Shown here piece by piece: positions 13,501-54,273 of a DNA stretch of 64,000 nt. Position numbers and translations under genes: made by a program. Source of the stretch: a virus; IMG/VR virus record IMGVR_UViG_3300031616_000003, positions 1-64,000 of that record; one strand, given 5' to 3'. Position 1 is the first letter of the stretch. Each line of letters begins with the position of its first letter. Below the pieces are notes generated by a model that saw only the letters and a program-made list of their open reading frames with translations, did no database searches and was not told the origin of the DNA.

Positions 13501-16021
13501 GATCTTGAACCGCTTTGGCCAGGTCCCGCTGAGCCTTCTTGTTGCGTTCGTCGGCGGCGGCGAGGTCGTCCTTGGCCTTGACGACCTTGTCGGCCTTCTC
13601 GATGCCCTGCTGGAACTGCTTGTCCTGCTCGTCGGCCAGCTCAGCGCCCTTGCGCTTGAGATCGTCCATCTGCAGCAGGCGCTGCTCGTAGGTGATCTGC
13701 GCCTGCTCGCGCTCCGCCTCGGACGCGCGCGGGTTGGCCAGCAGCTTGTCCAGATCGGCCTTCGCCTTGGCGATGTCGAGGGTGTTCTGGCGCTGGTCCA
13801 GCGAGTTGCCGCGCAGCGAGGAATTGAGGTCCTCGAGCGCCCGCCGGGCATCGCGGTAGGCCTCGGTCAGGCTGGCCCTGGCCCGCTGGTCGTCGATGGC
13901 CGCCTGGGTGGCGTCGCGCTGGGCCTGAGCGGTTTTTTCGGCCGCGTCCGAGTTGGCGCGGGCCACGTCCAGGACCGCGTCCTTCTCGTCGACGATCGCG
14001 TCCCGGATGGCCCGGCGCGACTTGATCGCCGCGTTGTCGTTGTTACGCCGGGTGTTGGCCAGCGCCATCTCGGCGGATTTGATCTGGTCGTTGGCCGCGA
14101 CCACCGCGCTGGCCGAGCGGGCCAGCGCGACATTCGACTTCGCCTGGCTGTCGGAGTACGCCCCCAGCGCCTTGACCGCGTCGCCGATGCCGGAAAACGC
14201 CAGCGCCATGACGCCGACCCCGGAGCCGGCGGCCAGGGCCGCCGTGCCGATCGCGCCGATCGCGCTGGCCGCCGCGGCCGCCGCCGGCACGATCACCGTG
14301 CCGAGCGACGCGCCGAGCGCGATGATGCCACCGAGCCGCGACAGGTTCAGGCTCAGCGCGCCGGCCAGGCCCTTTAGGTTGGCGAGCGCGCCATCGGTGT
14401 CGACCTTGACGGTCGCCTTGTCTTTGTCGATCCGGTTGAGCAGAACGAGAATGCCGCCCAGTTCGGTCGCCGCGCTGGCGGCGTCGACCCGGACATCGAT
14501 GTCGATCTTCTTGTCGCGGGAGATCGCTGACAGCCGGCGGAACTCGCGCTCCACATCGTCGGCGAACGTCTCGACGTCGACGTTCACGCCGATCTGGATG
14601 TCACCCAGCGCCGCGATCCGGGCGCGGATCGCGGCCATCTCCTTGTCGATGTTGTTGGCCTGCAGCTGCACCGGCAGATCGACGATGCGGCTGGCGGCAG
14701 AGCGAGCGCCCTGCTGAGCCTTGCCCGTCGTAGTGTTGGACAGCATTGCCGCATCGCGGCGCGCCTGCTCGGCCAGCGCCGCGGCGTGGTCGCGGAGGAA
14801 CTGGTCCTGGGCGCGGCGCTGGCGCTTGTAGTCCTCGGCCACCGCGGCGTCGTACTGGTTGTTGAAGTCGTCCAACGCCCGGCGCTGCCGCTTGTAGTCC
14901 TCGGCCACCGCCTGGTCGTAGAGATTGCTGAAGTCGTTGCGGATCTTCAGCTGCCGCTTGTAGTCCTCGGCAATGGCGGCGTCGTACTGCTTGTTGAAGT
15001 CGTCGAGCGCCTTGCGCTGGCGCTTGAAGTCCTCGGCGATGGCGGCCTCGTGCGCCCGTCCGAGGTCCTCACGGAACTGGCGGTCCCGCTTCGCCTGCTC
15101 CTTGTAGGCGTCGTCCCACGCCTTTAGGTAGACCGCGGCCTGGTCCTCGGCGGCGCGTTGCTCCTGGGTCTTGATGTCGTTGAAGAAGCCGCCGGCCTGC
15201 TGGCGGGCCTTGTCGGTGGCCAGCGCCAGCTCGATGGTTCCGGAGCGCTCGGTGAACTGGTCGAGCAGGCCTTCGAGGTTGCCCATCTCGCGCTTGAGGT
15301 CGTCGCCGTCGATCTTCACGCCGAGCTTGAGGTTCAGCGGGTTGTTGTCGGCGGTGACGGTGTCGCCGATCTTCAGCTTCGCGGCGTCCTGGATGCGCTG
15401 CTTGAGCGCGGCGACCTGGCGCTGGTCCGGGGTGGAGCCCTCCCGGGTGAGTAGGTCCGGCAGCGCCTTGTCCATCGCCTTGAGGCGGGTCAGGTACGCG
15501 TCGCTGAACGCGTCGCCCGCGGCGAAGCCCCGCTTGCGCGCGGCGTCGACGATGTCCCGGACCGCGCCCAGCTCCTGGGCGGCGTTGCCGGCGTTGGTGA
15601 AGCGGCCGACGGCGTTGACACCCTGGGCGTCCTGCTGGGCCTTGCGCAGCGCGGTCTGCGCGCGCTCGACCCGGGCGATGAAGTCCTTCTCGTTGAACCC
15701 CTTGGTGACGTCGATCTCGGAGATCGCGACGAGTTCCTTGCGCAGCCCGGACAGGACCCGGTCGCCCTCGGGGATGTTGGCCAGGCCCGCCCGGACCCGC
15801 TTGATCGCGTTGTCGGCGAACGTCTTGCCGAGCACCTGGCCGGCCTTGGCGGTCTCCGCGTCGGCCTGCCGGCCGGCGTTCTGCATCGCCGTGCCGAGCT
15901 GCTTGCCCAGCGACCTGTCGAGGTTCTTCGCGATCTCCCGGGCGCCCTTGGCCAGCAGCGACTCGAGGTTGACGAACGAAGGCTCGATCTGCAGAAACGC
16001 GGTGCCGGCGTCGTACGCCAC
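10535..16021 (-). CDS. Tape measure protein with M15-like peptidase domain
   Basis: 1828 aa, the longest gene of the window. It is largely helical, with coiled-coil regions and about five tandem copies of a heptad-like AEDxKRQRxxxDxFN unit (about residues 325-415), and several hydrophobic segments (about 560-620 and 1130-1420) that may enter the membrane. Near the C-terminus SYHSLNRAVDV (about 1680) and NHVHWA (about 1735) match the HxxxxxAxD and HxH zinc sites of M15 peptidoglycan peptidases. It sets tail length and probably helps local wall cleavage at infection. Position after the tail chaperones agrees. Confidence 0.9.
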   Translation of the reverse strand: MAYDAGTAFLQIEPSFVNLESLLAKGAREIAKNLDRSLGKQLGTAMQNAGRQADAETAKAGQVLGKTFADNAIKRVRAGLANIPEGDRVLSGLRKELVAISEIDVTKGFNEKDFIARVERAQTALRKAQQDAQGVNAVGRFTNAGNAAQELGAVRDIVDAARKRGFAAGDAFSDAYLTRLKAMDKALPDLLTREGSTPDQRQVAALKQRIQDAAKLKIGDTVTADNNPLNLKLGVKIDGDDLKREMGNLEGLLDQFTERSGTIELALATDKARQQAGGFFNDIKTQEQRAAEDQAAVYLKAWDDAYKEQAKRDRQFREDLGRAHEAAIAEDFKRQRKALDDFNKQYDAAIAEDYKRQLKIRNDFSNLYDQAVAEDYKRQRRALDDFNNQYDAAVAEDYKRQRRAQDQFLRDHAAALAEQARRDAAMLSNTTTGKAQQGARSAASRIVDLPVQLQANNIDKEMAAIRARIAALGDIQIGVNVDVETFADDVEREFRRLSAISRDKKIDIDVRVDAASAATELGGILVLLNRIDKDKATVKVDTDGALANLKGLAGALSLNLSRLGGIIALGASLGTVIVPAAAAAASAIGAIGTAALAAGSGVGVMALAFSGIGDAVKALGAYSDSQAKSNVALARSASAVVAANDQIKSAEMALANTRRNNDNAAIKSRRAIRDAIVDEKDAVLDVARANSDAAEKTAQAQRDATQAAIDDQRARASLTEAYRDARRALEDLNSSLRGNSLDQRQNTLDIAKAKADLDKLLANPRASEAEREQAQITYEQRLLQMDDLKRKGAELADEQDKQFQQGIEKADKVVKAKDDLAAADERNKKAQRDLAKAVQDQQRGQSDGLKKIKAAQQKIDDARAAAADQQKDAAYAEFTATQSLISAKRALAAANDRSSVAGGSQLDALNTAMAKLSPTAQKFARYIFGLKDAFFALRAAADPVLAGLQRAMESLIGKTSKDAQRNLQPLFTFVHGVAGALGDIFEKLAASLKGPAFTRFFQYIADTAVPTLFLMFDAFDNITQGVLNLFLAFTPLTGEVSQGFLGLTESFRKWSEGLQKNKGFQDFIAYLRQSGPPVMHLIGEIVKTVGKLVVAAAPVGTVVVAIFTKLFELINKIPEKTLIAIVAGIAAAAAAIALFAGATAIAALEIPGLIAGAIAVVVVAFSALVGSSDTLRGKLGVLWEAIKTGAAAAFGFLKTAIKVLRPVFDDMVEAALSFYNDGLKPAFDAVVALFSSFWQMIKPSLDNVGGFFAQLGQLAFFLYDQAILPAFKGIMAVARELFDILKPIFEVIGTVIGAVAVIVFWLLNKVFMPVVRGIVWLLVRILAPVFKFLWFFIRPILRSIGLAVQILAAFIKIAIGIIMIALKLLGMGFKWLYDHAIKPAWDALVEHVFQPMKDWIDKHIAPTWNKAMKKLGEIWASLKKMLGVPIKFVVETLLNDGLLKGYNWLADKFDIEPKNVKIPAPKGGWTGFAHGGAVHGPGTGTSDSIAARLSRGEHVLTDREVRAAGGHDVIYALRRALLSGTFLPGFARGGAVGGRGETGDGFGDWLKKTAKSIGKKASDVFDSAADFIRDPLGSITSLAKGLFDKIPGKDTWIIQKLISLPTKVLETLKDKVTGLFSGGGQAADGTTSSGVFGTSNALGGTGGMMQVLRAVFPGLALNSGFRPGAITVTGNRSYHSLNRAVDVPPRRDVFEWLRKNYPNSRELIFSPMGSEQIKDGRSHVYSGAVKRIHYNHVHWAYENGGLLPDTRKMPGGTMQVFHGRRTPDKVLTDRQWSNMAVLADKAKESIAGGHTDHWHFRDATLDVEQYNQVQARRDALNRVNRSNY

Positions 16022-19424: not shown

Positions 19425-19745
19425 CTATCCGGTGACCAGGCGCAGCGGGATCTCGAACCCCTCGTTGAGCCACAGCCGGGGCTTCTCGATCACGTCGTAG
19501 ACGTCACCGCGGACCACCACCTGGTCCCGCGCGGTGAGCCCCGGGGCCTCGGGCGGCGCGAACAGGGTGCCGTCGGCCTGGACCTGGTTGGCGTGGACCT
19601 CGTTCTCACGCCCGGCTCCGGGCGCGAACAGGCAGTCCTCGACCACCACGTCGCTGCCGGATCCGGGGATCGGGTGCTGGAAGTTGTCCAGCCGCGCCGG
19701 ATACCGGAAGATCACCGTCTCGGCGTTGCTGGACCCGAACGCCAT
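19425..19745 (-). CDS. Head-tail connector / head closure protein
   Basis: 106 aa, beta-rich, with VVVEDCLFAPGAGRENEVHANQV and a GDVYDVIEKPRLWLNE strand, the pattern of SPP1 gp16-type head-closure (stopper) proteins. It begins at the stop codon of the adaptor gene (1-nt overlap). Confidence 0.75.
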   Translation of the reverse strand: MAFGSSNAETVIFRYPARLDNFQHPIPGSGSDVVVEDCLFAPGAGRENEVHANQVQADGTLFAPPEAPGLTARDQVVVRGDVYDVIEKPRLWLNEGFEIPLRLVTG

Positions 19746-20452
19746 CAGTGACCGCCGGGCCCGAAGTACGGTCCATGACTCCAGCCGCGCCGGTGCGTGG
19801 ACGGCACGAAGCCGCCGGTGACCCGCGCCGTGCCGATCTTGCCGCGCGCGCCGCGGCTGGTGTCGACCGGCGGGAGCAGCAGCCCGGCGTCAGCCGAGAT
19901 GATCTGCAACATGCCGCTGGCCGCGTCCGGGTCGTAGGCCCGGGAGAACGGGCCGGTGGTCTCGGAGCGCAGACCGCCCGGGTTGCGCATCACCCGGGCG
20001 ACCATGTTCAGCACGGCCAGCCCGGCGCTGTCGCCCGGCACCGTGCCGGCCACGATCCGTTCGTCGATGCCCGGGTAGCTGTCACGCACCAGCTGGCTGG
20101 CCCGCTTTAGCAGTGCACGGGCGGTCGACGCCCGCGCCGCCGAGAGGTTGCCGTACAGCTCGGTGTACTCGCCGAGGGTGGCCAGCGGGGGCACCGCGCT
20201 GATCGGGTCGAACCGCTCGAAGTAGCTTTCCTTGCTGGTGGCGGTGCCGGAGGCGCTGAACACGGCCTCGTACACGCCGGCCAGCGAACCGACCAGCGTG
20301 ATCGGGTACAGCCCACTGGCCGAGGGCGTCTCCGGCACCGGGACATCGGACTGCAGGACCGCCCCGGTCGGGGTGTGGATCCAGCTCATCACCACGTCCG
20401 CGCCGGTGGCGGTGGTGTAGGTCAGTTCGATGGCGTCGCCGACATCGCTCAC
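19745..20452 (-). CDS. Head-tail adaptor (Gp19/Gp15-like) with N-terminal Ig-like domain
   Basis: 235 aa. The N-terminal 80 residues are beta-rich (TYTTATGADVVMSWIHTPTG, YPITLVGSLAGVYEAVFSASG), like a small Ig/Big-type module. From about 90 on, LATLGEYTELYG, RALLKRASQLVRDSYPGID, LNMVARVMRNPGGLRSETTGPFSRAYD match the helical adaptor family that follows the capsid gene in actinophages. The extra N-terminal module probably decorates the neck. Confidence 0.8.
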   Translation of the reverse strand: MSDVGDAIELTYTTATGADVVMSWIHTPTGAVLQSDVPVPETPSASGLYPITLVGSLAGVYEAVFSASGTATSKESYFERFDPISAVPPLATLGEYTELYGNLSAARASTARALLKRASQLVRDSYPGIDERIVAGTVPGDSAGLAVLNMVARVMRNPGGLRSETTGPFSRAYDPDAASGMLQIISADAGLLLPPVDTSRGARGKIGTARVTGGFVPSTHRRGWSHGPYFGPGGH

Positions 20453-23448
20453 GTCGACCTCCTGATGCCGAGCACGGCGTTGTCGGTGCGAGAGATCCCG
20501 CCGAGGATCCGGGCGATCGTGATGGAGCCGACCGGTCGGCGGATGGTGATGACGTGCGCAGCTGCCACCGCCGGTGGCAGCCGGATCCCACCGGCGGTGA
20601 GCCCGCCCAGGGCCGACAGCGTCGCCGTTGCGGTGCTGTGTCCGGCCGCGCCGGCCACCACCGTGGCGACCGCGCTGAACAGGGCCGCGATTTGCAGCTG
20701 CCGGGTCGGCGCGGCGAACAGCGACGTGCCGGCCGACAGGGCCACCGTGGCGTTCTGCACCGGCAGCGCCTGCAGTTGCGATGCCGCTGACAGCAGTACC
20801 GTGGCGACCCGCTCGCGGTCGCCGGCCGCACTGACCGAGGCCAGCGCACTCAGCGCGACGAACGCGGTCTCCCCGGTCACCGCTGCGGCGGTCATGCCGG
20901 AGGAGGCGCTCAGGTCAGCCGCCCCGGGATGCACCCGCCGCCCCGTGGCACTCAGAGCCGAGGCGGCCGTGAGGTGCGCCACCGACTGCAGCGTGCGGAA
21001 GGCTCCCGCCGCCAGGCCGGAAGCGGCGCTGAGCGTGACGCCCTGCGCCGCGCCGGCCTGGCCGGTCGCCGATAGCTCGGATGCGGCGGACAGGTCCGCT
21101 GCCGCCACCGCAGCCGGCACACCGGCCGCGGTGAGCCCGGTGTCGGCTGCCAGCGTGACACTGGCGAGTCCTGCCACCAGGGCGTTCACGGTCAGCCCGG
21201 AAGCGGCCGCAAGTGCTGCCGTACCGGATCCGGTACCGATCGCTTCCGCGGTCAGTCCCGATGCTGCGGACAGTCCCGCCGTGCCGTACGCGAGGTACAG
21301 CGCTTCCACGCTGAGCCCGCCCGATGCCGCCAGCACCACACTGGCGGAGCCGGTGGCATCGGGAGTGGCGGACAGGTCGGTAGCAGCCGCCAGCGCGACA
21401 GCGGCCAGCGCGATGGTGACGCCGCCGCCGGTCAGCCCGGAAGCGGCGTCGAGCGTCACGCCGGCGACGGCGATCGCAATGGCCCCGGCGTCCAGCCCGG
21501 AAGTAGCACTCAGCGCGGCCGCGCCGGCGCCGGTGGCCAGCGCGGTGACGCCGAGCCCGGACGCGGCGGACAGGTTGATGCTCTGACCGGAGATGGCCTG
21601 AGCGGCCGCGACCAGCTCGGAGGCCGTGGTCAGGTCGACGGCCAGGGGCTGCACCCGGGCCGCTGCGGCCGCCAGGTCGGTGGTCGCCGACAGGTCGGCT
21701 GTGCCCGGCTGGGTCACTACACCGGTCGCCGACAGCAAGCTGGCGGCGGACATGGCCGCCGAGGAGAACCCGGTGGCCAGCGCCGCGGCCGAAAGCGAAC
21801 TGTCGGCGGCCAGCGCGACAGCGGCCGGCCGGATCAGGATGGCCGCCGCGTTCAGGTCCGATGCGGCGCTCAAGGCGGTCGCGCCGACCGCGGTGGCACC
21901 CGACAGCGCCGACAGCGCCGAGGCTGCCGACAGACTCGCCAAGGCGAGGCCCGTCGCCAGCGCTGTGCTGCCGAGCCCGGAAGCGGCGGACAGGGCAACC
22001 CCGGCCATGCCAGTAACCACGCCGGCGACGCCCAGGCCGGATGCTGCACTGAGGGCGGCACTGGAAACCGCGGTGGCCAGAGCCGTGCTGCTGAGTCCTG
22101 AGGCCGCGCTCAGCGTCGCCGCGCCGTCGGTGGTCCGCACCGCCGCGGCGGTCAGCCCGGTGGCGGCCGACAGGTCGGCGGCGCCCAAGGCGATGGTGGT
22201 GCCGGTGGCAGCCAGTTCCGAGGCCGCGCTGAGCGCCGCCGCGACGTACGCCGTGACAGCGCCCGTGGCGCTGAGGCCTGATGCAGCCGACAGCGCGGCC
22301 GCTCCCGGTCGGATCGGCACCCCGGCAACGCTGAGGTCTGTCGCCGCGCTCAGGGTGGCGCTGGCGACGCCGGTGGCCAGGGCTCCGGCCGTCATTCCGG
22401 ACGCGGCCGACAGGCCGGCGGTTGCGACTCCCGTGGCCAGTCCGGTCGCGCTCAGCCCAGAGGCGGCTGACAGGTCGGTCGCGCTGACCGCAGTGAGCAA
22501 GCCGGTGGCGCCGAGGCCTGTGGCGGCCGACAAACCTGCCGCCGCCACGCCGGTGGCGATGGCCGCCGCCGACAGGCCGCTGGCAGCGCTCATCGCCACC
22601 GCGCCCGTGCCGGTCGCCACAGCGGCAGCGGTCAGCCCCGAAGCACCCGACAGCGCTACCGCACCCAGGTTGGTCTGCACCGCGGCCGCGGCCAGCCCGG
22701 TGGCCGCGCTCAGCGAGGCCGCTCCCGGCTGGATCTGGGTCGCCCCGGCGCTCAGCCCGGTAGCGGCGGACAGCGAAGCGCTACCCGTGGGCGCCGGCCC
22801 GGGCAGGCCGACGTCGGTCATGACGATGTCGTCGAAGTAGAAGTCGGCCAGCGAGGCGGTCGCCGTGAACTGGCCGATGCCGATCTCGTTGACCGCGCCG
22901 GTGGTGGCGAACACACCATTGCCGACGATCGTTTCCAGTGGGCTCGTCGAGTCGCCCAGGTACAGGTAGATCGTGTTGCTGAGCGTGCCCGCCTGGATGT
23001 CCCACTCGACCCGGTAGGTGGTGTTCGCCGCCAGCGTCGTGGTGCCGGTGCCGCCGCTCGTGGCCGGCGCCGAGTTGTTGCCCTGGCGTAGCTCGAGGCC
23101 GGCGCCGTTGGCATACCGCAGCCGTGCCACCTGTGTGGTGGCACGGCGCCACCGGATCAGCTCACGGTCCTGGCTGGTGCTGGTCAGCTGGAAGTACATC
23201 CGGCCGTAGACCCGGGTCGGCGAGCCGACGACGGTGGAGTCCCAGACGGTGAACACCTGGGCCGCGGTGCCGCCGGTGGACAGCCGGTAGCCCAGCAGGC
23301 CGTGCTCGGCCGCGGTCGTGGAGTAGGTCAGCGCCCCGGTGGTGCCGATCGTCACCGACACCCAGGCGTCGCCGGAGGTGCCGCCGCTGTTGCCGGTGGT
23401 GACGGTGCTCGCGTTGGTGCCGCCCTCGGCGGAGTTCACGAGCCGCAC
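20449..23448 (-). CDS. 999-aa protein with about 37 tandem 20-residue repeats
   Basis: Starts with GTG behind AAGGGGGG. Residues about 1-210 form a LamG/concanavalin-like beta domain ending FYFDDIVMTDVGLPGP. From about 215 to 955 the chain is a nearly perfect series of 20-residue units of the form GAxxLSAASGLsAxAvaTGv; the C-terminus is VGSITIARILGGISR. The regular Ala/Ser/Gly units suggest a beta-solenoid or stacked helical rod. It is coupled to the adaptor gene and follows capsid-region genes, so it may be a head or neck fibre. I know no named family. Confidence 0.75.
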   Translation of the reverse strand: MRLVNSAEGGTNASTVTTGNSGGTSGDAWVSVTIGTTGALTYSTTAAEHGLLGYRLSTGGTAAQVFTVWDSTVVGSPTRVYGRMYFQLTSTSQDRELIRWRRATTQVARLRYANGAGLELRQGNNSAPATSGGTGTTTLAANTTYRVEWDIQAGTLSNTIYLYLGDSTSPLETIVGNGVFATTGAVNEIGIGQFTATASLADFYFDDIVMTDVGLPGPAPTGSASLSAATGLSAGATQIQPGAASLSAATGLAAAAVQTNLGAVALSGASGLTAAAVATGTGAVAMSAASGLSAAAIATGVAAAGLSAATGLGATGLLTAVSATDLSAASGLSATGLATGVATAGLSAASGMTAGALATGVASATLSAATDLSVAGVPIRPGAAALSAASGLSATGAVTAYVAAALSAASELAATGTTIALGAADLSAATGLTAAAVRTTDGAATLSAASGLSSTALATAVSSAALSAASGLGVAGVVTGMAGVALSAASGLGSTALATGLALASLSAASALSALSGATAVGATALSAASDLNAAAILIRPAAVALAADSSLSAAALATGFSSAAMSAASLLSATGVVTQPGTADLSATTDLAAAAARVQPLAVDLTTASELVAAAQAISGQSINLSAASGLGVTALATGAGAAALSATSGLDAGAIAIAVAGVTLDAASGLTGGGVTIALAAVALAAATDLSATPDATGSASVVLAASGGLSVEALYLAYGTAGLSAASGLTAEAIGTGSGTAALAAASGLTVNALVAGLASVTLAADTGLTAAGVPAAVAAADLSAASELSATGQAGAAQGVTLSAASGLAAGAFRTLQSVAHLTAASALSATGRRVHPGAADLSASSGMTAAAVTGETAFVALSALASVSAAGDRERVATVLLSAASQLQALPVQNATVALSAGTSLFAAPTRQLQIAALFSAVATVVAGAAGHSTATATLSALGGLTAGGIRLPPAVAAAHVITIRRPVGSITIARILGGISRTDNAVLGIRRST
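20585..22785 (-). repeat. Tandem 60-bp repeat array inside the 999-aa gene
   Basis: About 37 imperfect 60-bp units encode the 20-residue repeats. Wobble positions differ between units while the SAASGL core is kept, so the array is old and under protein-level selection, not a fresh duplication. It also creates two long meaningless open frames on the plus strand. Confidence 0.85.
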
Positions 23449-23493: not shown

Positions 23494-23880
23494 CTACGCC
23501 AGCGTCACGGTGACGCTGGACGCGGCGAAGCTGAGCGAGTCGCCGGACGCCACCGTCTTGCTGGCGGTCAGCGCCCCGGCCCACGCGCGCCGCGGGGTGC
23601 CGTTGGAGTCGTAGATGTCCACGCCGGTCACCGTGGCCGCCGGCATGGCGGTGAAGGTGATGGCACCAGAGTTGGCGGCCGACCCGGCGCTGGCCGCGCC
23701 GAAGGCGATGGTCTGCCGGGCGTACGAGCCGCCGGTGACCTCGGTGCCGGCGGTGCCGGCGGTGCCGGTCGCGGTGGCCAGCGCCAGCTTCATGGCGCCA
23801 GTCGGCGCGGTGTATGTGGCGGTGCCCAGCGAGGCGTCCAGCAGCCGGTTCGCCTCGGCGGTCACGATGTTGTTGGCCAT
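23494..23880 (-). CDS. Phage fibre/decoration-type protein
   Basis: 128 aa, beginning ANNIVTAEANRLLDASL and with TGAMKLALATATGT, GTEVTGGSYARQTIAFG and a C-terminal beta run. This is a known small family of phage structural proteins, often labelled tail fibre or decoration, found in many actinophages. It sits between capsid and connector genes, next to the repeat protein, and may act with it on the capsid or neck surface. Confidence 0.75.
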   Translation of the reverse strand: MANNIVTAEANRLLDASLGTATYTAPTGAMKLALATATGTAGTAGTEVTGGSYARQTIAFGAASAGSAANSGAITFTAMPAATVTGVDIYDSNGTPRRAWAGALTASKTVASGDSLSFAASSVTVTLA

Positions 23881-23886: not shown

Positions 23887-24180
23887 TCAGCCCTTCTGCT
23901 CGTCGCCGGCCGTGACCGGCTCGTCGGCCGGTGCCGTCCAGCCGGGCTTGTCGGCCTCCGGGCCGGTGGTGACCAGGTGGGCGCGCAGCGCGTCACCCTT
24001 CGGGTTCTTCTTGACGCCACCGACGTCGGCAAGCTGGGCCTTGCAGACCTCGCAGTCGCCCGCGATCACGTGGCAATCCATGTGCCAAGTGATCAATGCG
24101 CCGTCGCCGCTGGCGATGACGTGCCGCGGGTGGTCGTCGCTCTGAGCGCACCCGATGCAGGTACGCACGGGATTCGACAT
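23887..24180 (-). CDS. Small Zn-ribbon-like protein in head region
   Basis: 97 aa. CIGCAQSDDHPRHVI, then H-M-D-C-H and CEVCKAQL give two Cys pairs and several His that could bind zinc. Similar short CIGC...HMDCH proteins are frequent between capsid and connector genes of actinophages. The ATG at 24180 is chosen because the Cys motif starts right after it. Function unknown. Confidence 0.7.
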   Translation of the reverse strand: MSNPVRTCIGCAQSDDHPRHVIASGDGALITWHMDCHVIAGDCEVCKAQLADVGGVKKNPKGDALRAHLVTTGPEADKPGWTAPADEPVTAGDEQKG

Positions 24181-24270
24181 CTCGTCCTCGTTTCGTGTGG
24201 ATCGGGTGCGGGGCAAGGGGGATCCGCGCCCCGGCGGCGGGGAAGGCTGCCGGGGCGCAAGATCGATGGG

Positions 24271-24786
24271 TTACTGGATGCGGCCGTCGTCCTTGAGCCG
24301 GGCGATGATGTCGCCGCGGTCCGCGGCGGACGCCACGTCGACACCCAGCTGGGCGGCGTACGCGCGCCAGGCGGCCTCGGTCGCCCCCCTGCCGGAACGC
24401 GGCGGCTCCGGCAGGACCGGAGCGGCCGCCCCCTCGTCGGTGATGACCGGCTCCGGATCGGGTAGTGGCAGGCCGTTGACCGTGCCCTGAGCGGCCGGAA
24501 CGACCGCACTGGAGGCGGTGTCGGCCAGCTGCTCCGTCAGGTTCGGGATGCCGTTGGTGCCCGGCTCACTCGGGATCACCGGCTGGCCGGTGTTCATGAC
24601 ATCCACCGACGGCGTGCGCCGGCCCTCGGGGCCCCACGGGTTGGCGTCGGCCTCGACGGGTGCCCAGCACTTCGGGTTCCGGATGAGGGCGGCGACCTCC
24701 GGGGGAGGTACGTCGCCCTCGTTCCAGACCACGCCGTCGAGGATCACCAGCCGCGTCAGGGCGCGGGGCTTCTCCTCGGCGGTCAC
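24271..24786 (-). CDS. Structural-region hypothetical protein after major capsid
   Basis: 171 aa from a GTG at 24786 that overlaps the capsid stop codon. The first 50 residues (RLVILDGVVWNEGDVPPPEVAALIRNPKCW) form a compact domain seen after capsid genes in actinophages. The middle is a Pro/Ala/Glu-rich linker, and the end (EAAWRAYAAQLGVDVASAADRGDIIARLKDDG) is a short SAP/HeH-like helix-extension-helix, a fold often used to bind nucleic acid. Confidence 0.7.
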   Translation of the reverse strand: MTAEEKPRALTRLVILDGVVWNEGDVPPPEVAALIRNPKCWAPVEADANPWGPEGRRTPSVDVMNTGQPVIPSEPGTNGIPNLTEQLADTASSAVVPAAQGTVNGLPLPDPEPVITDEGAAAPVLPEPPRSGRGATEAAWRAYAAQLGVDVASAADRGDIIARLKDDGRIQ

Positions 24787-25820
24787 CAGAGGGTGGCCGT
24801 CAGGAGCTTGAGGTTGTCGGCCAGCACGGGCATGCCGATCGCCGTGACCTTGGTCCAGGTGCGGACCGGGTCGCCCTCCTTGGTCACCATGCCGACCAGG
24901 CCGGGAGCCTGGGCGAAGGTGAGCTGCGGGTTGTTGAGCCCGACCAGCTCCAGCGCCTCCGCCGTGACGCCCCAGTAGGTGTTGCCCAAGGCGGTGGCGG
25001 TCTGCGGCAGGAAGATCATCTTGTTGGCGGGGATGATCCGGGTGGCCGTGTTGTTCACGTACACCTGCGAGTCGTACTGCACCAGCTGCGGCAGGTCCTC
25101 GCTGTCCAGCACCGCGGCCAGCTGCGACCGGGTGATGACCGACGGGGTACCGCCCAGGGTGGCGTAGCGCGAGCGCACCTTCTCGTTGCGCAGCATGTGC
25201 CCGATCGCCTGGCGCGAGGTCAGCGCGTAGGCGGGGGCCTCGCCGGCGTCGTCGACGTACAGGTCGACCCAGTCGCGCATCTGGTCGAGCGGGTCGGCGT
25301 CGACGTGGTCGGTCCACGGGTCCGGCGCGGTCGGCATGTGGCTCGACGGCACACCGAAGTCCGCCTCGATGCCCTTGAGACCGTTTTCGCCGGCGAAGGT
25401 GAACTTGCCGGTGGTCAGGACCTGGCCGCGGGCCAGCTCCATGCGGGCCAGGACCGCCTCGGTGTTGATCCGGGCGTCGTTGTAGAGCGCCTGGATCAGG
25501 CTGGCGGTGTTGTCGCCGCCCGAACGCAGCATCTCCAGGCGCAGGCGCTCCTCCTCGCCGACCAGGGTCTTCTGACCCAGGGGCGGCAGGCTGACGCGCG
25601 AACGCTGGAAGTTGTCACGCTCGCCGATGGGCGTTTCGGCGTCGTACGCCCGGAACATGGCCGCGCGGTTGCGCTTGAAGGCCGTCGTGAAGGCGGCCTC
25701 GATGTCGGAGATGTTCTGGTCCGGCAGGAAGGTGCTGAGCGTGTAGTTCGCCGGGACCGGCAGCTCACGCACGAATCCGGTCAGGACGCCGGGCTCGATG
25801 AGATCGAAATTCAGTGCCAT
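24783..25820 (-). CDS. Major capsid protein (lambda gpE-like)
   Basis: 345 aa. DLIEPGVLTGFVRELP at the start, the E-loop and the P-domain helix region, and the C-terminal TWTKVTAIGMPVLADNLKLL fit the gpE-like branch of HK97-fold capsid proteins. The ATG has a GAGGAGG site. Decoration and scaffold genes lie directly upstream, as in related phages. Confidence 0.9.
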   Translation of the reverse strand: MALNFDLIEPGVLTGFVRELPVPANYTLSTFLPDQNISDIEAAFTTAFKRNRAAMFRAYDAETPIGERDNFQRSRVSLPPLGQKTLVGEEERLRLEMLRSGGDNTASLIQALYNDARINTEAVLARMELARGQVLTTGKFTFAGENGLKGIEADFGVPSSHMPTAPDPWTDHVDADPLDQMRDWVDLYVDDAGEAPAYALTSRQAIGHMLRNEKVRSRYATLGGTPSVITRSQLAAVLDSEDLPQLVQYDSQVYVNNTATRIIPANKMIFLPQTATALGNTYWGVTAEALELVGLNNPQLTFAQAPGLVGMVTKEGDPVRTWTKVTAIGMPVLADNLKLLTATLW

Positions 25821-42553: not shown

Positions 42554-45500
42554 TCAGAGCCGGATCGCCTCGCGGCCGAACAGCTCCATCATCTCGGTCA
42601 TGAACTCGATGTCCGGGGTGACCGTCCAGCCTTCCGGCAGGTAGCTCTCCGAGCCGAGCTGGAAGCGCAGCGGCCGGTCGCCCGGGTGGTCCAGCATGAT
42701 CTTGCGAACCCGGCCGGCCAGCTCCGCGTCGAACAGCTCCGGAGCGCAGTGGATCTCCACCAGCCGCGGGCCGCTCGTGCTGGGCCCGGTGACCCCGATC
42801 AGGCCCATGTCCAGCTCGTCGAGGATGTCGACGCAGATGGTCGGCGCCTCGCCCTCGTCGCGCTGCCACAAGCTCACCTTGACGCGCACCTTCGAGTCGG
42901 GCTGCATCAGGTGCCGGTAGGAGCCGTACGCCCGGCCGAACGCCATGATCTCGGCCTGGCTGTCCAGGTCGGCGAGCACCAGCTTCGCGTACGACTTCCC
43001 CGACCGGGCGACCTTGTGCTCCGCGCTGACCAGCTGGCCGGCCAGGGTGGCGCCGGTGACCGACGCGTCGGCGACCCCGCCCTCCTCGTCCACCGCGATA
43101 GCCGCCAGCAGCTCGCCGATGGTCATCGTGCGGTTGCCGGCCAGCACCGGCTCCAGCTCGTCCAGCGGGTGCCCGGACACGTACAGCCCCAGCGCTTCGC
43201 GCTCCAGGGTGAGCAGGGTCTCCTTGTTCCACTCCTCGATGTCGCGCACCGCCACCGACTCCAACTGCACGTCCTCGACCGCGCTGAACAGGTCGTACTG
43301 GCCGACGGCCTCCTTCTTCTTCACCCCGGCGAGCTGGCCGACGCCGTCCTCGTAGCAGGCGGTCAGCGAGCTGCGGGTGTGCCCGATGGAGTCGAACGCG
43401 CCGCCGCGGATCAGCGCGCCGACCGCGGGCTTGCTGCAGGTGCTCAGCGGGATCCGGTCGAGGAAGTCGGCGAACGAGACGTATGGTCCCTTTGCCCGGC
43501 CGGAGATGATGCCGGGCACCGCCTTGGCGCCGAGGCCGTTGACGGCGTTGAGGCCGAAGCGGATCTCGGACCTGCTGATCGGGGTGAAGCTGGGACCGGA
43601 CTCGTTGACGTCGGGCACCAGCACGGTGATCCCGATGCGCCGGCACTCGGCCAGGTACATCGCCTTCTTGTCGGAGTCGTCACCGGCCTGGGTGAGCAGC
43701 GCCGCCATGAACTCGGCCGGGTAGTGGGCCTTCAGCCACGCCGTGGCGTAGGTGATGAAGCCGTAGCTCACGGTGTGCGCGATGTTGAACGCGTACGCGC
43801 TGAACGGCAGGAAGATGTCCCAGAGCGCCTGTGCGGCCTCCTCCGAGTAGCCCTGCTCCTTCATGCCGGCGAAGAACGGCGGCTTCTCCTTGGCCAGCAC
43901 CTCGGGCTTCTTCTTGCCCATCGCCTTACGCAGCAGGTCGGCCCGGCCCAGTGAGTAGCCGGCGACGGCCTGCACGGAGCGCAGCACCTGCTCCTGGTAG
44001 GCGATGACGCCGTAGGTGGGGCCGAGGATCTCGGCCAGGGCGTCCTCCAGTTCCGGGTGGATCGGCTTGATCTTCTGCCGGCCGGTCTTGCGCAGCGCGT
44101 AGTCGGTGTGCGCGTCGGCGCCCATCGGGCCCGGCCGGTACAGCGCCAGCGCCGCGGAGATGTCCTCGAAGCGGTCGGCGCGCATCTGCGCCAGCAGCTT
44201 CGACAGGCCACCGGAGGCGACCTGGAACATGCCGACGGTGTGCCCGCTGGCCAGTTCGGCGAACGCGGCCGGGTCGTCAAGCTCCGTCAACCGGGGCTCG
44301 ACGTCCACCCCGTGGCGCTCGGCGATCTGGTCGACGGTGTGCTGGATGACGTCCATGGTGTCCAGGCCCAGGCAGTCGACCTTGAGCAGGCCCATCGGCT
44401 CGAGGACTTCGGCGTTGGGGAAGCCGGACACCCACTGCTGGTCCTTCTCCGACCAGACCAGCGGGATCAGGCCCATCAGCGGCTGGCTGGACACCACGAT
44501 GCCGCAGGCGTGCACGCCGACGGACCGGATCAGGCCCTCCAGCTGCACCGCCAGGTCGAAGACCTCCTGCGCACCCTCTTCCTTGCCGAGCACCGCCCGG
44601 AAGTCCTCGGCGTCGGCGTAGCGCGGATGCTCCTCGTCGGTGACGCAGGCCAGGTCGGCCTCGAAACCGCTGATCGCCTTGGGGAACGCCGCGGTCATCC
44701 GGGCGCCGGTGGCGAACGGCTTGTCCAGCACCCTCGCCGCATCCTTGATCGCGGCCTTGGCCTTGATCGTGCCCAGGGTCTGGATCCGGCAGACCCGGTC
44801 CTCGCCCCAGCGCTCCATCAGGTAGCGGAACACCTCGTCGCGGCGGCCCTGCATGAAGTCGACGTCGACATCCGGCGGGGACACCCGCTCCGGGTTGATG
44901 AACCGCTCGAACAGCAGGCCGTGCTCCAGGGTCGGCACGGTGGTGATGTCCAGGGCGTAGCTGGTGCCGGAGCCGGCGGCCGAGCCGCGGCCGGGGCCGA
45001 CCCGGATGCCCTTGCCACGGGACCAGTCGGTCATGTCGGCCACCATCAGCATGTAGTCCGGGTAGCCCATCTTGGTGATAACCGGCAGCTCGTAGCCCAG
45101 CACCCGCTCGTGCGCGTCGGCCCGGATGCCCTCCTCGCCGGCGGGGTCCGGGTACTTGCGCTGCAGCCCCGCCACGACCCGCTCGCGCAGGTAGCTGTCG
45201 GAGGTGTGACCCTCGGGTACGGGGAACTTCGGCAGCAGGTCGTCGCGGGGCAGGAACACCTCGTCGTAGGCGTCGGTGGCGATCCGCTCGGCGATGGCCA
45301 GGGTGTTGTCGCAGGCCTCCGGCAGCTCGCTGAACAGCCCGCGCATCTCCTCGGAGGAGCGCAGGTAGTAGCCCTGGCCGTCGAACTTCATCCGGTTCGA
45401 CTCGTGGATCTTGTTCTGCATCTGGATGCACAGCAGCGCGTCGTGCATCGGTGCCTGCTCGGCCTCCACGTAGTGGCTGTCGTTGGTGGCCAGCAGCGGC

Positions 45501-46198
45501 AGGTCCAGCTCCTTGGCTAGGCGCATCAGGTCGTCGCGGACGTTGTTCTCCAACGCCATGCCGTGGTCCATCAGCTCCAGGAAGTAGTTCTCCGGGCCCA
45601 GCAGGTCACGCCAGATCGCCGCCTCCTGCACGGCCCGGTCGTACTGGCCGAGCCGGATCCGGGTCTGCACCGCGCCGGACGGGCACCCGGTGGTGCCGAC
45701 CAGCACCGCGCCGGACCATTTGGCGAGGACTTCGCCGAGCAGGTCGGCGTCGATGCGCGGCTTCTGATAGAAGCCCTCCCGGGAGGCGCGGCTGGTCAGC
45801 TCGAACAGGGCCCGCAGGCCCTGCGCGTTCTGCGCCAGCACGGTCATGTGGGTGAAGGCGCCGTCACCGGAGACGTCCTTGCTGTCGTCCCCGCCGCCCT
45901 TCTTGGCCGCCTTCTTGCCGCCGGCCCCGAAGTAGATCTTCTTCTTGTCGAACCGGCTGGCCGGTGCCACATACAGCTCGCAACCCAGCACCGGCTTGAT
46001 GTCGGCGCCGCCCTCGCGCAGCTTGCGCGCCACGTCCCACATCTCGTAGTGGCTGAACACGTTGCCATGGTCAGTGCTGGCCACGGCCGGTTGGCCCAGC
46101 GCGACCGCCTTGGCCATCAGTTTCCTGATCTTCGCGGCGCCGTCGAGCATCGAGTACTCGGTATGCGTGTGCAGGTGCACAAAGCTGTCGGCGCTCAC
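42554..46198 (-). CDS. dnaE: DNA polymerase III alpha subunit (DnaE-type) with PHP domain
   Basis: 1214 aa, full length. N-terminal PHP domain: HLHTHTEYSMLDG (8-20) and STDHGN (41-46), so the metal-binding residues look intact. The polymerase core has GPGRGSAAGS and the catalytic PDVDVDF (about 441-447), then HTVSYGFITYATAWLKAHYPAEFMAALL; the C-terminus has an OB-type domain and a short tail. It replicates DNA 5' to 3', here probably phage DNA. A complete replicative polymerase suggests the phage does not depend on the host alpha subunit; sliding clamp and loader genes are not in the window. GTG start overlaps the upstream gene by 4 nt. Confidence 0.95.
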   Translation of the reverse strand: MSADSFVHLHTHTEYSMLDGAAKIRKLMAKAVALGQPAVASTDHGNVFSHYEMWDVARKLREGGADIKPVLGCELYVAPASRFDKKKIYFGAGGKKAAKKGGGDDSKDVSGDGAFTHMTVLAQNAQGLRALFELTSRASREGFYQKPRIDADLLGEVLAKWSGAVLVGTTGCPSGAVQTRIRLGQYDRAVQEAAIWRDLLGPENYFLELMDHGMALENNVRDDLMRLAKELDLPLLATNDSHYVEAEQAPMHDALLCIQMQNKIHESNRMKFDGQGYYLRSSEEMRGLFSELPEACDNTLAIAERIATDAYDEVFLPRDDLLPKFPVPEGHTSDSYLRERVVAGLQRKYPDPAGEEGIRADAHERVLGYELPVITKMGYPDYMLMVADMTDWSRGKGIRVGPGRGSAAGSGTSYALDITTVPTLEHGLLFERFINPERVSPPDVDVDFMQGRRDEVFRYLMERWGEDRVCRIQTLGTIKAKAAIKDAARVLDKPFATGARMTAAFPKAISGFEADLACVTDEEHPRYADAEDFRAVLGKEEGAQEVFDLAVQLEGLIRSVGVHACGIVVSSQPLMGLIPLVWSEKDQQWVSGFPNAEVLEPMGLLKVDCLGLDTMDVIQHTVDQIAERHGVDVEPRLTELDDPAAFAELASGHTVGMFQVASGGLSKLLAQMRADRFEDISAALALYRPGPMGADAHTDYALRKTGRQKIKPIHPELEDALAEILGPTYGVIAYQEQVLRSVQAVAGYSLGRADLLRKAMGKKKPEVLAKEKPPFFAGMKEQGYSEEAAQALWDIFLPFSAYAFNIAHTVSYGFITYATAWLKAHYPAEFMAALLTQAGDDSDKKAMYLAECRRIGITVLVPDVNESGPSFTPISRSEIRFGLNAVNGLGAKAVPGIISGRAKGPYVSFADFLDRIPLSTCSKPAVGALIRGGAFDSIGHTRSSLTACYEDGVGQLAGVKKKEAVGQYDLFSAVEDVQLESVAVRDIEEWNKETLLTLEREALGLYVSGHPLDELEPVLAGNRTMTIGELLAAIAVDEEGGVADASVTGATLAGQLVSAEHKVARSGKSYAKLVLADLDSQAEIMAFGRAYGSYRHLMQPDSKVRVKVSLWQRDEGEAPTICVDILDELDMGLIGVTGPSTSGPRLVEIHCAPELFDAELAGRVRKIMLDHPGDRPLRFQLGSESYLPEGWTVTPDIEFMTEMMELFGREAIRL

Positions 46199-46419
46199 GC
46201 CGGCACCAGGCCCTTCTCCTTGCTGTGGTCGTGGCCCTGGGTGCATTCGTGCGGCTGCCCGCGGTCGGTCCAGGCCGCGCCGGAGATCTCGTCGCAGCAG
46301 TGGCCCTTGTGGTTGTTGATCCGCGTACAGATCAGGTCGGGCTTCTTCGGGTTGATCGCCAGGCAGAAGTCGATCTTCGTCTTCGGCCGGGCGAGCGTCG
46401 AGGTGGGGTTGTCGCTCAT
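46195..46419 (-). CDS. Small His/Cys-rich protein before dnaE
   Basis: 74 aa: KIDFCLAINPKKPDLICTRINNHKGHCCDEISGAAWTDRG with four Cys and HECTQGHDHSKEKG at the end, a likely metal-binding domain. It is coupled to the polymerase gene by a 4-nt overlap. Function unknown. Confidence 0.7.
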   Translation of the reverse strand: MSDNPTSTLARPKTKIDFCLAINPKKPDLICTRINNHKGHCCDEISGAAWTDRGQPHECTQGHDHSKEKGLVPA

Positions 46420-46434
46420 GCTCGTCCTTCCAAC

Positions 46435-46701
46435 TCAGGCGGCAAGGCGCCGCACGAACGTCATGCACCGTTCGCAGGCTGGCAACTCGTCGATCTTCAC
46501 GAGCTGCCGGATGTTGCGGGCTTGGTAGTTGGCGCGGTCCTGGTCGACCGCGCCGCGAGTCCCACAGACAGTCGTCCCGGAGCGCCCGGGACGGATGGCG
46601 TCACTGGCCAGCACATAGGACCAGTGGCGCACCAGGGGGACATACAGAGCCCGGCTCGGAGTGCGCAACAGCGTGCACGGCTCCGGTCGGGTGTCTGACA
46701 T
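46435..46701 (-). CDS. 88-aa protein from a leaderless mRNA
   Basis: TRGAVDQDRANYQARNIRQLVKIDELPACERCMTFVRRL: the C-terminal half is helical with ACERC. ATG at 46701 lies 7 nt after TACGGT; no ribosome site. Heads the dnaE operon, so its promoter should also drive the polymerase. Confidence 0.7.
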   Translation of the reverse strand: MSDTRPEPCTLLRTPSRALYVPLVRHWSYVLASDAIRPGRSGTTVCGTRGAVDQDRANYQARNIRQLVKIDELPACERCMTFVRRLAA

Positions 46702-51869: not shown

Positions 51870-52210
51870 AGGACCACCTGCGCATCCGGGGCGCGCATGA
51901 CCCGGCCGTAGCGTTTGCAGTAGTCCTGGTGCAGCTCGCCCTCGCCGGCCGAGCAGGTAGCACAGCCGTACCGGTCGCTGGTGCGGTGCGGGAAGCGGTC
52001 CGGCGTGAAGCCGAGCTTCCAAGCCCTGGTGCCGAACTCCACGGTCGTGGCCGCGCTTAGGATCGCCGAGGCCGCGCGGGCGCCCAGATGATCCGGGTTG
52101 GCGATCGCGCCGCTGGCCATCAGGCTGTCCTCGTACTCCCGCTGGACCTCGGCGGCGATCCGCTCGTACAGGCTCACCATCTGCGGGTCGTTGTCCCAGT
52201 TGATGTCCAC
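51866..52210 (-). CDS. 114-aa first gene of the leftward block
   Basis: Helical start (QMVSLYERIAAEVQREYEDSLMASG) and CATCSAGEGELHQDYCKRYG with three Cys and one His. GTG at 52210 is preceded by GAGGAGG and a promoter motif. It is the first gene left of the divergent intergenic region. Confidence 0.75.
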   Translation of the reverse strand: MDINWDNDPQMVSLYERIAAEVQREYEDSLMASGAIANPDHLGARAASAILSAATTVEFGTRAWKLGFTPDRFPHRTSDRYGCATCSAGEGELHQDYCKRYGRVMRAPDAQVVL

Positions 52211-52238
52211 GTTCGTCCGGCCTCCTCAAGTTTGAGAC

Positions 52239-52261
52239 AGCGTACAACATCAGGTGCGACA
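52239..52261 (-). promoter_or_regulatory. Promoter motif TGTCG-N12-TACGCT, leftward
   Basis: Minus strand: TGTCG (52261-52257), 12 nt, TACGCT (52244-52239). It faces the leftward gene at 52210. One nt longer spacing than the other sites. Confidence 0.65.
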
Positions 52262-52300
52262 GACCGGCACGTGCCACGATCACGTGAAATCCCAGCATGC

Positions 52301-52529
52301 AATAAACGAAAACCCCCTGCATAGCTCTTGCCATACCCGGGGATTAAACGGACATCGCGCGATAGCAAGTGCCATCCGAGGGTTTTCTGTTTATTCGGCC
52401 GGACCGACGTTCGCGCAGGTCAGGCCCTACGCGAAAATTCCGGAAACTCGGCCATAGCAAGTGCCATACCCGGGGTTTCCGCAGAAAACCCCCGGATGGC
52501 ACTTGCTATGCAGGGGTTTTCGTTTAATT
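52301..52529. repeat. Four copies of a conserved element in the divergent intergenic region
   Basis: The core ATAGCAAGTGCCAT occurs at 52362-52375, 52454-52467 and, inverted, at 52496-52509; a variant ATAGCTCTTGCCAT is at 52321-52334. Each core is flanked by CCC(C) and GGGG runs next to A or T tracts. The last two copies make a palindrome over 52454-52509 with a 14-bp perfect outer stem. The region is clearly richer in A/T than its surroundings and lies between leftward and rightward genes. It may be a replication origin, partition site or operator array. The rest of 52211-52798 shows no gene. Confidence 0.8.
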
Positions 52530-52697
52530 CCTCACCAGGTGGGACTCTCGCGTACCCTGGGGCAAGGTCGGAGGCGTGCTAGCCCACCCCTCCCCACCCT
52601 GCGCTCCACGGGTCGTTGGTCCGTCCCTGTCGGCCGCGCGAGGCGAAGACCCGGGCGCCCTCCCCCTTCCAGTGCCGCCCGGGTCCACGCCCGGTGA

Positions 52698-52719
52698 TGT
52701 CACGACACACCTGTATGCT
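52698..52719 (+). promoter_or_regulatory. Promoter motif TGTCA-N11-TATGCT, rightward
   Basis: TGTCA 52698-52702, 11 nt, TATGCT 52714-52719. It starts a rightward transcript over the 42-aa gene and toward the tRNA array. Confidence 0.6.
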
Positions 52720-52798
52720 CCTTCGAGGAAAACCCTTGTGCGCCAGGCGTGGATCACCTACGGTTGGTGTCAAGCAGAACTAGACGAGGAGCCCCGAG

Positions 52799-52927
52799 AT
52801 GTATCGCTGGCACGCCACGAGCAACCCGCAGCACATGCTGCCGGGCTCGGCAGCCTGCGCCCTCGGGACAATCAACTTCGTCCGCGATGAGCAGTCCCGC
52901 AAGCCCGGAACGAGGCGGCGCCCCTAG
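52799..52927 (+). CDS. 42-aa hypothetical protein before the tRNA array
   Basis: MYRWHATSNPQHMLPGSAAC then ALGTINFVRDEQSRKPG and a basic end. GAGGAG lies 8 nt before the ATG and a promoter motif 80 nt upstream, and a strong terminator follows the stop. These signals support a short expressed gene; the protein has no known relatives that I recognise. Confidence 0.6.
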   Translation: MYRWHATSNPQHMLPGSAACALGTINFVRDEQSRKPGTRRRP

Positions 52928-52944
52928 CGCCACGGTCACACAGA

Positions 52945-52977
52945 CGCCGCCTCCGAACTCGGAGAGCGGCGTTTTTT
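52945..52977 (+). terminator. Rho-independent terminator
   Basis: CGCCGC-CTCCG stem (52945-52955) pairs with CGGAG-A-GCGGCG (52960-52971), with one bulge, and is followed by TTTTTT (52972-52977). It ends the transcript of the 42-aa gene and separates it from the tRNA array. Confidence 0.85.
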
Positions 52978-52996
52978 CGTAGGTCAAACAACTGAA

Positions 52997-53009
52997 TAGG
53001 CACCACCGA
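52997..53009 (+). promoter_or_regulatory. Likely promoter of the tRNA array, starting at the tRNA 5' end
   Basis: TAGGCA (52997-53002) is followed after exactly 7 nt by the first base of tRNA-Trp. The same 7-nt distance separates -10 hexamers from start codons of leaderless genes here, so transcription may begin at the mature tRNA 5' end. Confidence 0.5.
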
Positions 53010-53082
53010 GTGGGTGTAGTTCAACTGGTAGAGCAGCTGCCTCCAAAACAGCAAGTTGCAGGTTCGAGTCCTGTCGCCCGCG
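53010..53082 (+). tRNA. tRNA-Trp(CCA)
   Basis: Seven-bp acceptor stem, D-arm, anticodon loop CTCCAAA and T-arm with GGTTCGAGT. Pair 31-39 is C-A. First gene of the array. Confidence 0.9.
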
Positions 53083-53125
53083 CGTACGGTCCCCCGAGAA
53101 CCTTTGGGCATGGACATGGCACCAC

Positions 53126-53155
53126 TTGAGAACTGCACAGTGGAATGGCATGAGA
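53126..53155 (+). promoter_or_regulatory. rRNA-leader-like motif in the tRNA array
   Basis: TTGAGAACTGCACAGTGGA (53126-53144), then GGCATGAG, resembles the conserved TTGAGAACT-ACAGTGGA-GCA leader element in front of actinobacterial 16S rRNA genes, used for antitermination and processing. Recognised from memory. It lies between the first and second tRNA genes. Confidence 0.55.
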
Positions 53156-53156
53156 T

Positions 53157-53180
53157 CGCCCGGCGGTACGCCGCCGGGCG
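53157..53180 (+). other. Strong hairpin with TACG loop
   Basis: A perfect 10-bp stem (53157-53166 with 53171-53180) around a TACG tetraloop, directly after the rRNA-leader-like motif and 4 nt before tRNA-Ala. No T-run; more likely a processing or antitermination structure than a terminator. Confidence 0.6.
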
Positions 53181-53184
53181 CAAT

Positions 53185-53257
53185 GGGGCCTTGGCGCAGC
53201 TGGTAGCGCGTCGGTATGGCATACCGAAGGTCGTGGGTTCGAATCCCGCAGGCTCCA
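53185..53257 (+). tRNA. tRNA-Ala(GGC)
   Basis: Complete cloverleaf; anticodon loop ATGGCAT closed by TCGGT/ACCGA; T-loop TTCGAAT. Confidence 0.95.
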
Positions 53258-53262
53258 CTCAC

Positions 53263-53335
53263 GCTCGTGTAGCTCAGTTGGGAGAGCGCTGCTCTGAAAA
53301 GGCAGAGGCCGCCGGATCGATACCGGCCGCGAGCA
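53263..53335 (+). tRNA. tRNA-Phe(GAA)
   Basis: Complete cloverleaf; anticodon loop CTGAAAA. The T-loop reads ATCGATA, so position 54 is A instead of the usual T. Confidence 0.92.
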
Positions 53336-53385
53336 CGTCGTCGCCGGTCTGGTCAGGGCGCCATCCCTGCCGGCGGCGGCTCCAT

Positions 53386-53460
53386 GGGCCACTGGAGCTG
53401 TTGGCAAAGCTCATCTCGTTCTCAGCGAGAAGATCGTCGGTTCGAGCCCGACGTGGCCTA
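53386..53460 (+). tRNA. tRNA-Glu(CTC)
   Basis: Acceptor GGGCCAC/GTGGCCT, anticodon stem TCTCG/CGAGA around TTCTCAG, T-loop TTCGAGC. Confidence 0.93.
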
Positions 53461-53469
53461 CGCAACAAT

Positions 53470-53540
53470 GCGGACGTAGCTCAATGGCAGAGCTTCTGTC
53501 TTCCAAACAGACCACGCGAGTTCGATTCTCGTCGTCCGCT
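53470..53540 (+). tRNA. tRNA-Gly(TCC)
   Basis: Acceptor GCGGACG/CGTCCGC; anticodon loop CTTCCAA; T-loop TTCGATT. Confidence 0.95.
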
Positions 53541-53547
53541 CTTTCGC

Positions 53548-53624
53548 TCCGGGTTGGGCTGTTGGCAGGCTCGACGGGGTTTTGGTCCCCGGTACAGACG
53601 CGGGTTCGAATCCTGCACCCGGAA
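53548..53624 (+). tRNA. tRNA-Gln(TTG)
   Basis: Acceptor TCCGGGT/ACCCGGA; anticodon stem CGGGG/CCCCG around TTTTGGT. The D-stem has wobble pairs and the variable region is 8 nt, so the fold is less regular than its neighbours. Confidence 0.85.
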
Positions 53625-53629
53625 CAAAT

Positions 53630-53702: not shown

Positions 53703-53714
53703 CGTAAATGCAAT

Positions 53715-53787: not shown

Positions 53788-53830
53788 CTCGCCCCGGTAT
53801 CTTTTGATCAAAGAAAAGGAGGTGATCCCG

Positions 53831-54271: not shown

Positions 54272-54273
54272 TC

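Follow-up and report, generated by a model that had tools for sequence, protein, structure and literature searches.

Neck appendages of siphophages that infect Gram-positive hosts are poorly known outside the dairy phages. In the lactococcal 936 and TP901-1 phages, the neck passage structure (NPS) is described as a fibre at the collar that ends in a distal binding domain and has swapped groups of tips; it has been modelled with an N-terminal BppU-like anchor, a coiled-coil shaft, and a C-terminal tip, and in TP901-1 it is reported to be expressed together with the capsid (PMC6669499). The neck fibres of cyanophage A-1(L), according to PMC10966104, are bead-chains of many small trimers built from three proteins and end in a distal carbohydrate-binding module, which did not bind the tested host. 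Among bacterial adhesins, Bordetella filamentous haemagglutinin (FHA; 1rwr) is described as a secreted exoprotein with a two-partner secretion domain and a predicted beta-helix of one coil per 19–20 residues, in which about 80 repeats form a 40-nm rod (PMC3756990). Here we describe a 999-residue repeat protein encoded on the minus strand at positions 20449–23448 of the window, that is, the whole 64,000-base stretch analysed, which comprises bases 1–64000 of the 71,079-base virus record IMGVR_UViG_3300031616_000003 (G+C about 70%). Our keyword searches of a library of open-access papers turned up no account of actinophage neck fibres built from 20-residue repeats.

We propose, with moderate confidence, that this protein is a virion adhesion fibre projecting from the neck, with a C-terminal anchor, a solenoid rod, and an exchangeable N-terminal tip; its presence in the virion, location, polarity, and binding of glycans are what we infer. 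The conserved C-terminal end would hold the fibre at the head–tail joint, probably through a Gp80-like connector and an N-terminal extension of the head-tail adaptor, and the N-terminal domain at the far end would bind a polymer on the host surface, most probably a glycan. The rod may change in length by whole coils and the tip may be exchanged, which would alter reach and target and leave the rest of the virion unchanged. This is the most economical account. By analogy, the fibre would work like the lactococcal NPS, but it is not a member of that family: it is proposed to be oriented the other way round, and its shaft consists of 20-residue repeats with predicted beta structure. It resembles the A-1(L) fibres in its proposed neck attachment and distal binding domain, and differs from their bead-chain of small trimers. 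The likeness to FHA concerns the predicted rod, but the fibre matches no two-partner secretion or haemagglutinin repeat family (Pfam, E≤1), and a PDB scan gave no FHA sequence match.

The gene starts with GTG (23448) and ends with TGA. A preliminary description of the locus, made from the sequence alone, had reported this reading frame (leaving the strand unstated) and about 37 copies of a 20-residue repeat, and both hold. The N-terminal domain, the proposed distal tip, spans residues 1–221 (22786–23448, minus strand), the repeat units, the proposed beta-solenoid shaft, residues 222–961 (20566–22785, minus), and the C-terminal tail, the proposed anchor, the 38 residues 962–999 (20452–20565, minus). 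Scanned with the repeat profile, the protein shows 36 scoring units in one register (residues 222, 242 ... 882, 900, 940) with a single 18-residue step, or 37 units if a degenerate one at 920 is included; 50 shuffles of the repeat region gave a mean of 0.76 scoring units and a maximum of 3. Self-identity at lag 20 is 0.41 over residues 216–930 and 0.43 in the regular part (shuffle maximum about 0.22), and DNA identity of the array at lag 60 is 0.52. The units are rich in Ala, Ser, Gly, and Thr, with L5, A7, L11, and A13 conserved and G10 frequent. Units are on average 43% identical to one another; neighbours are no more alike than the rest, and there is no gradient with distance. The array is thus old and maintained, and recent expansion by duplication was rejected. 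Together with the last repeats, the tail is the best-conserved part between relatives, and comparison of the C-terminal 200 codons with those of the relative L002 shows purifying selection (dN 0.105, dS 0.364, dN/dS 0.29). The preliminary description saw no known family. That stands insofar as no named family applies (Pfam gives none at E≤1), but the repeats match PHROG 31951 (function unknown), and the protein has counterparts at the same site in Hiyaavirus and is part of a gene cassette that recurs.

Long open antisense frames with the same 20-residue period oppose the fibre gene (20375–22840, plus strand). These are most likely by-products of the repeat and the high G+C. The frame at 21626–22840 (plus) was rejected as a real gene, given the homologues, the dN/dS, and the head-operon position of the sense frame.

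The closest relative is represented by two contigs from one sample, L003 and L002, which both break within the repeat; their ends do not overlap, and they may be two halves of one phage. Before the fibre gene, the window proteins are highly similar to those of L003/L002 (portal 98%, major capsid protein 99%, connector-like protein 87%, zinc ribbon 88%, Gp80-like protein 95%), as they are after it (adaptor 92%, closure 95%, terminator 98%, major tail protein 98%). The fibre itself is 57% identical over its best segment and colinear unit by unit only in the last ~220 residues, and its N-terminal domain has no match in L003/L002. This is the pattern expected of a host-range determinant, in which tip and shaft would recombine and the base would stay fitted to the virion.

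Structure prediction, which the preliminary description had suggested for the repeats, was carried out with AlphaFold2 (AF2) on residues 1–381 and 36 other rows, mostly register-shifted repeats. The repeats are modelled as all-beta, without helix, with about three short strands per unit (predicted local distance difference test score, pLDDT, 73–84). The top VIA-align match of the repeat model is the FHA domain 1rwr (Z 17.2, root-mean-square deviation (rmsd) 3.2, 180 residues), followed by pectate lyase and acyltransferase helices (Z 13–14). A Foldseek search against the PDB returned nothing at E≤0.001, and one against a viral library returned three matches at that threshold, with an rmsd above 20 and unusable. 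By this model, the repeats are predicted to fold as an FHA-like beta-solenoid. The rise of a beta-solenoid is usually about 0.48 nm per coil, at which 37 stacked coils would form a stiff rod of about 18 nm; scaling from the 80-repeat FHA rod leads to the same figure. Random repeats are documented to come out of AF2 as confident beta-solenoids (PMC11795689), and for this reason the open antisense frame of the same DNA, with the same period, was modelled as a control; it gave a pLDDT of 41 and no secondary structure, which supports a solenoid on the sense strand.

The alternative that survives best concerns the shaft alone, which could be a trimer with beta structure or else a flexible spacer resembling mucin. 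In either case the protein would still be an adhesin, and a neck location is compatible with this alternative. Most phage fibres are trimers, the repeats are rich in Ala, Ser, Gly, and Thr, and our models are monomeric only; the AF2 bias also speaks for this alternative. A disordered spacer is hard to reconcile with the strict 20-residue register and the conserved positions, and the failure of the antisense control to fold also speaks against this alternative. We regard it as a serious possibility, short of an even chance.

Location is suggested by gene order. The minus strand carries a siphovirus-type head–tail block in the order portal (phrog_104), head maturation protease (phrog_1522), scaffold, major capsid protein (24783–25820, PF03864), connector-like protein, a small zinc-ribbon-like protein (23887–24216, probable start ATG at 24180), Gp80-like protein (23494–23880, 128 residues), fibre, head-tail adaptor (19745–20452), head closure, tail terminator, tape measure, and Dit-like and Gp37-like tail-tip proteins. 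The fibre stop overlaps the adaptor start as GTGA, and the AGGAGG ribosome-binding site of the adaptor gene (20458–20463, minus) lies within the last fibre codons, which encode the terminal Arg-Arg; the coupling of the two genes claimed earlier is thus borne out. The same GTGA overlap occurs in L002 and G104, and ATGA in L007, and in the Hiyaavirus phages Galactica, Hiyaa, and Keanu the fibre gene ends on the first base of the annotated “head-to-tail adaptor.” A GIRR ending is conserved in the window, L002, and L007.

The adaptor matches phrog_137 at residues 85–200, and the preceding N-terminal extension of about 85 residues is Ig-like by appearance only. The window, L002, L007, Galactica, Hiyaa, and Keanu all have a fibre gene directly before an extended adaptor of this kind (219–237 residues). 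In the capsid-related phages RadFad and Yvonnetastic there is no fibre at the site, and the genes in the adaptor position encode 118 and 128 residues. In Streptomyces phage Wakanda, where the adaptor is also long (295 residues), two other proteins annotated as hypothetical lie between the capsid and adaptor genes (L026 6039–7759, genes 26–27); in one of them, collagen-like sequence comes after a weak match to an L-type lectin family (PF18483; E 2e-6, a score below cut-off). From these few and partly related cases, the site seems to be one where adhesive appendages are exchanged, with the adaptor extension going along with them. The same site in L004 (5130–7978), whose capsid protein is 87% identical, holds a DUF4082/fn3 protein instead, as well as a second protein that combines 21-residue PATVA-type repeats with a PKD-like domain.

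The gene upstream of the fibre encodes the proposed connector. This Gp80-like product matches PF23140 (“Podophage GP4 fiber I protein gp80”) at E 5.6e-22, with 78.9 bits against a Pfam cut-off of 27, and also PHROG 240 (“head protein”). A nine-row family profile matches chain a of 8JOU in the PDB (8jou_a, E 1.6e-4); it is chain g (8JOU_g) that the LSH1 paper, in its account of GP4, describes as a fibril that links an adhesin with the collar of the tail nozzle. In this comparison, the counterpart of Gp80, the GP4 fibre I protein, is the upstream neighbour and not the repeat protein.

Could the protein instead be a many-copy head fibre on the capsid surface, carried by the Gp80-like protein? The “head protein” label of PHROG 240 favours this, as does the position of the cassette after the major capsid gene in the window, L003, L007, L017, G104, and G009. 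Opposed to it are the overlap of the fibre gene with the adaptor gene, the extended adaptor where the fibre is present and the short one in the two capsid-related phages lacking it, and the solved PF23140 relative from GP4, a phage in which a protein of entry 8JOU is described as a tail-collar connector. A head fibre is unlikely.

A tail or baseplate fibre, for which the position by the neck genes would be an accident of gene order, is also improbable. In L015 and L018 the cassette lies just past a tail protein gene (phrog_1887), and the Hiyaa and Galactica genes are annotated “minor tail protein”; these annotations carry no evidence, and the window has its tail-tip genes (Dit-like PF22768, Gp37-like PF14594) in a separate block past the tape measure. 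That the protein is secreted or intracellular and sits in a structural operon by chance is very improbable, given its place between capsid and adaptor genes and the overlap with the next gene in several lineages.

Several observations weigh against a neck-anchored adhesion fibre. The tail-gene position of the cassette in L015 and L018, and its position beside a phrog_1084 gene in L014, mean that a neck location has to be argued phage by phage. The head or neck fibre with a rod-like shaft put forward in the preliminary description is also our preferred reading, and comparison and structure prediction now lend it support. There is no PF23140 match in Galactica or Hiyaa, and G170 and L019 contain repeats without a detected Gp80-like gene. 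The GIRR ending may be conserved for the ribosome-binding site that it encodes, which makes it, taken alone, weak evidence for a protein anchor. The known solenoid bias of AF2 is countered by one control only, built from fewer rows (14 vs 37) and a more proline-rich sequence. For the N-terminal domain, Pfam returns no match even at E≤10, hence no recognised carbohydrate-binding family, and the AF2 model is of low confidence (pLDDT mostly <50).

The “lectin-like” label given to this domain earlier is accordingly not confirmed at the sequence level: its detectable relatives are only the N-terminal domains of other fibre proteins. The domain alone had no match in a PDB sequence scan, and a four-row profile gave one weak PDB match (E 0.51). 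The VIA-align rows for the domain (Z below 4, on the low-confidence part) were not used.

Sequence comparison places the fibre in a wider unnamed group of actinobacterial phages and prophages with a 20-residue period and about 5 to 36 units, a range that emerged from the comparison of repeat number among relatives proposed earlier; across the group, N-terminal domains are exchanged or absent. No match to phage records was found by tblastn with the whole protein, the N-terminal domain alone (E≤10), or the adaptor; for the fibre, this is perhaps because the repeats are filtered and the N-terminal domain is divergent. Among IMG/VR relatives, L002 holds the C-terminal part of a fibre, and L003 has different N-terminal domains followed by repeats that are cut at the contig end. 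L005/L007 encode a mini version of 134 residues, which keeps five units and the C-terminus and has no N-terminal domain. A repeat-profile search added five proteins (L014, L015, L017, L018, and L019) and a search with the Gp80-like protein added L023 and L024/L025. N-terminal domains differ from locus to locus; in L014 and L015 they are absent, the repeats starting within about 25 residues of the protein start, and a single Paractinoplanes contig (L031) carries a pair of such fibre proteins whose N-terminal domains differ. In a lag-20 test of 13 proteins, those from the window, L002, L003, L014, L015, L017, L018, and L024 and Galactica gp11 exceed the shuffle limit. L007 has its peak at lag 38 and just reaches its limit (0.34) at lag 20, the peak is at 21 in both L019 and L004b, and L023 fails.

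The Hiyaavirus fibre genes (Galactica gp11, Hiyaa gp13, Keanu gp13) are alike in lying directly before the adaptor gene with overlapping ends, and their first domain aligns with the N-terminal domain of the window fibre at 22–28% identity. Galactica gp11 shares the 20-residue period (lag-20 identity 0.19 vs a shuffle limit of 0.14), but its repeat consensus is different and no unit scores with the window profile. All are annotated as “minor tail protein” or hypothetical.

The gene set recurs. A PF23140-like gene lies upstream of the fibre in the window and in seven of eight IMG records; the remaining record is a fragment whose first base already lies within the fibre gene. Contigs duplicating others were removed before counting (L010 and L016 with L002; L011 and L020 with L005; L021 with L003; L012 with L007), as were L025, near-identical to L024, and L006 and L022, which end just past the Gp80-like gene. 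Of the loci found by repeat profile, 4 of 5 evaluable have the Gp80-like gene upstream, with none in the listed open reading frames of L019. Conversely, a repeat protein is present at 5/6 Gp80-like loci with enough downstream sequence (including L012/L007, with its borderline period); L023, whose nearby protein lacks a significant period, was counted as a miss. Among 200 genomes of the bacterial family of the Paractinoplanes genome, at least 5 contain the repeat, at least 8 the Gp80-like protein, and at least 4 both (lower bounds, with at most 25 and 21 candidates scored per genome; hypergeometric P 5e-6, assuming an independence of genomes that is not full). In three of the four genomes with both, the two genes share a strand and are separated by less than 2 kb, the Gp80-like one being upstream; in the fourth they are on different contigs.

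The zinc-ribbon-like gene precedes the Gp80-like gene at six aligned loci (window, L003, L014, L017, L018, and L024), where the motifs CxxC, HxDC, and CxxC are invariant; its product is perhaps a fibre assembly factor. The order major capsid protein, zinc ribbon, Gp80-like protein, fibre, adaptor is found in the window, L003/L002, and L005/L007. G104 has a capsid gene (phrog_1650), zinc ribbon, Gp80-like gene, fibre (510 residues, period 20), and a gene overlapping the fibre stop that matches only phrog_17896, at its N-terminus. In G019, a fibre (363 residues, period 20) is followed without overlap by a gene similar to the one in G104; by position alone, both next genes are putative adaptors. 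A broader proposal, which we hold only tentatively, is that these genes form a portable three-gene adhesion cassette of actinobacterial phages (zinc ribbon, Gp80-like connector, and C-anchored solenoid rod with exchangeable N-terminal tip). It would sit mostly on the neck and in other lineages on the tail, with length tuned by whole 20-residue coils and an FHA-like rod whose polarity is opposite to that of classic phage fibres.

Elsewhere in the window, the tape measure gene holds a 66-base tandem repeat (14814–15091) encoding 22-residue units such as DFNNQYDAAVAEDYKRQRRALD, and a phage-encoded bacterial-type DNA polymerase III alpha subunit of 1304 residues lies at 42554–46468. The region 52000–59100 contains 30 clustered tRNA genes followed by a TROVE (Ro60-like) gene (57452–59056, plus; PF05731, E 2.8e-12); an Rfam scan of the tRNA region found tRNAs only, with all Y RNA families below threshold. 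A DNA similarity search with 16 kb of the window gave no match among phage records.

Genes of this group are currently filed as “hypothetical” or “minor tail protein,” and gene order together with the 20-residue period provides a search signature for them. The natural rods of about 5 to 36 units could be used to test fibre length against adsorption, and the Hiyaavirus isolates, which grow on laboratory strains of Streptomyces, make the fibre idea testable. The group points to a probable adhesin that evolves fast and lies away from the tail tip; as a neck fibre, it may help the virus catch its host.

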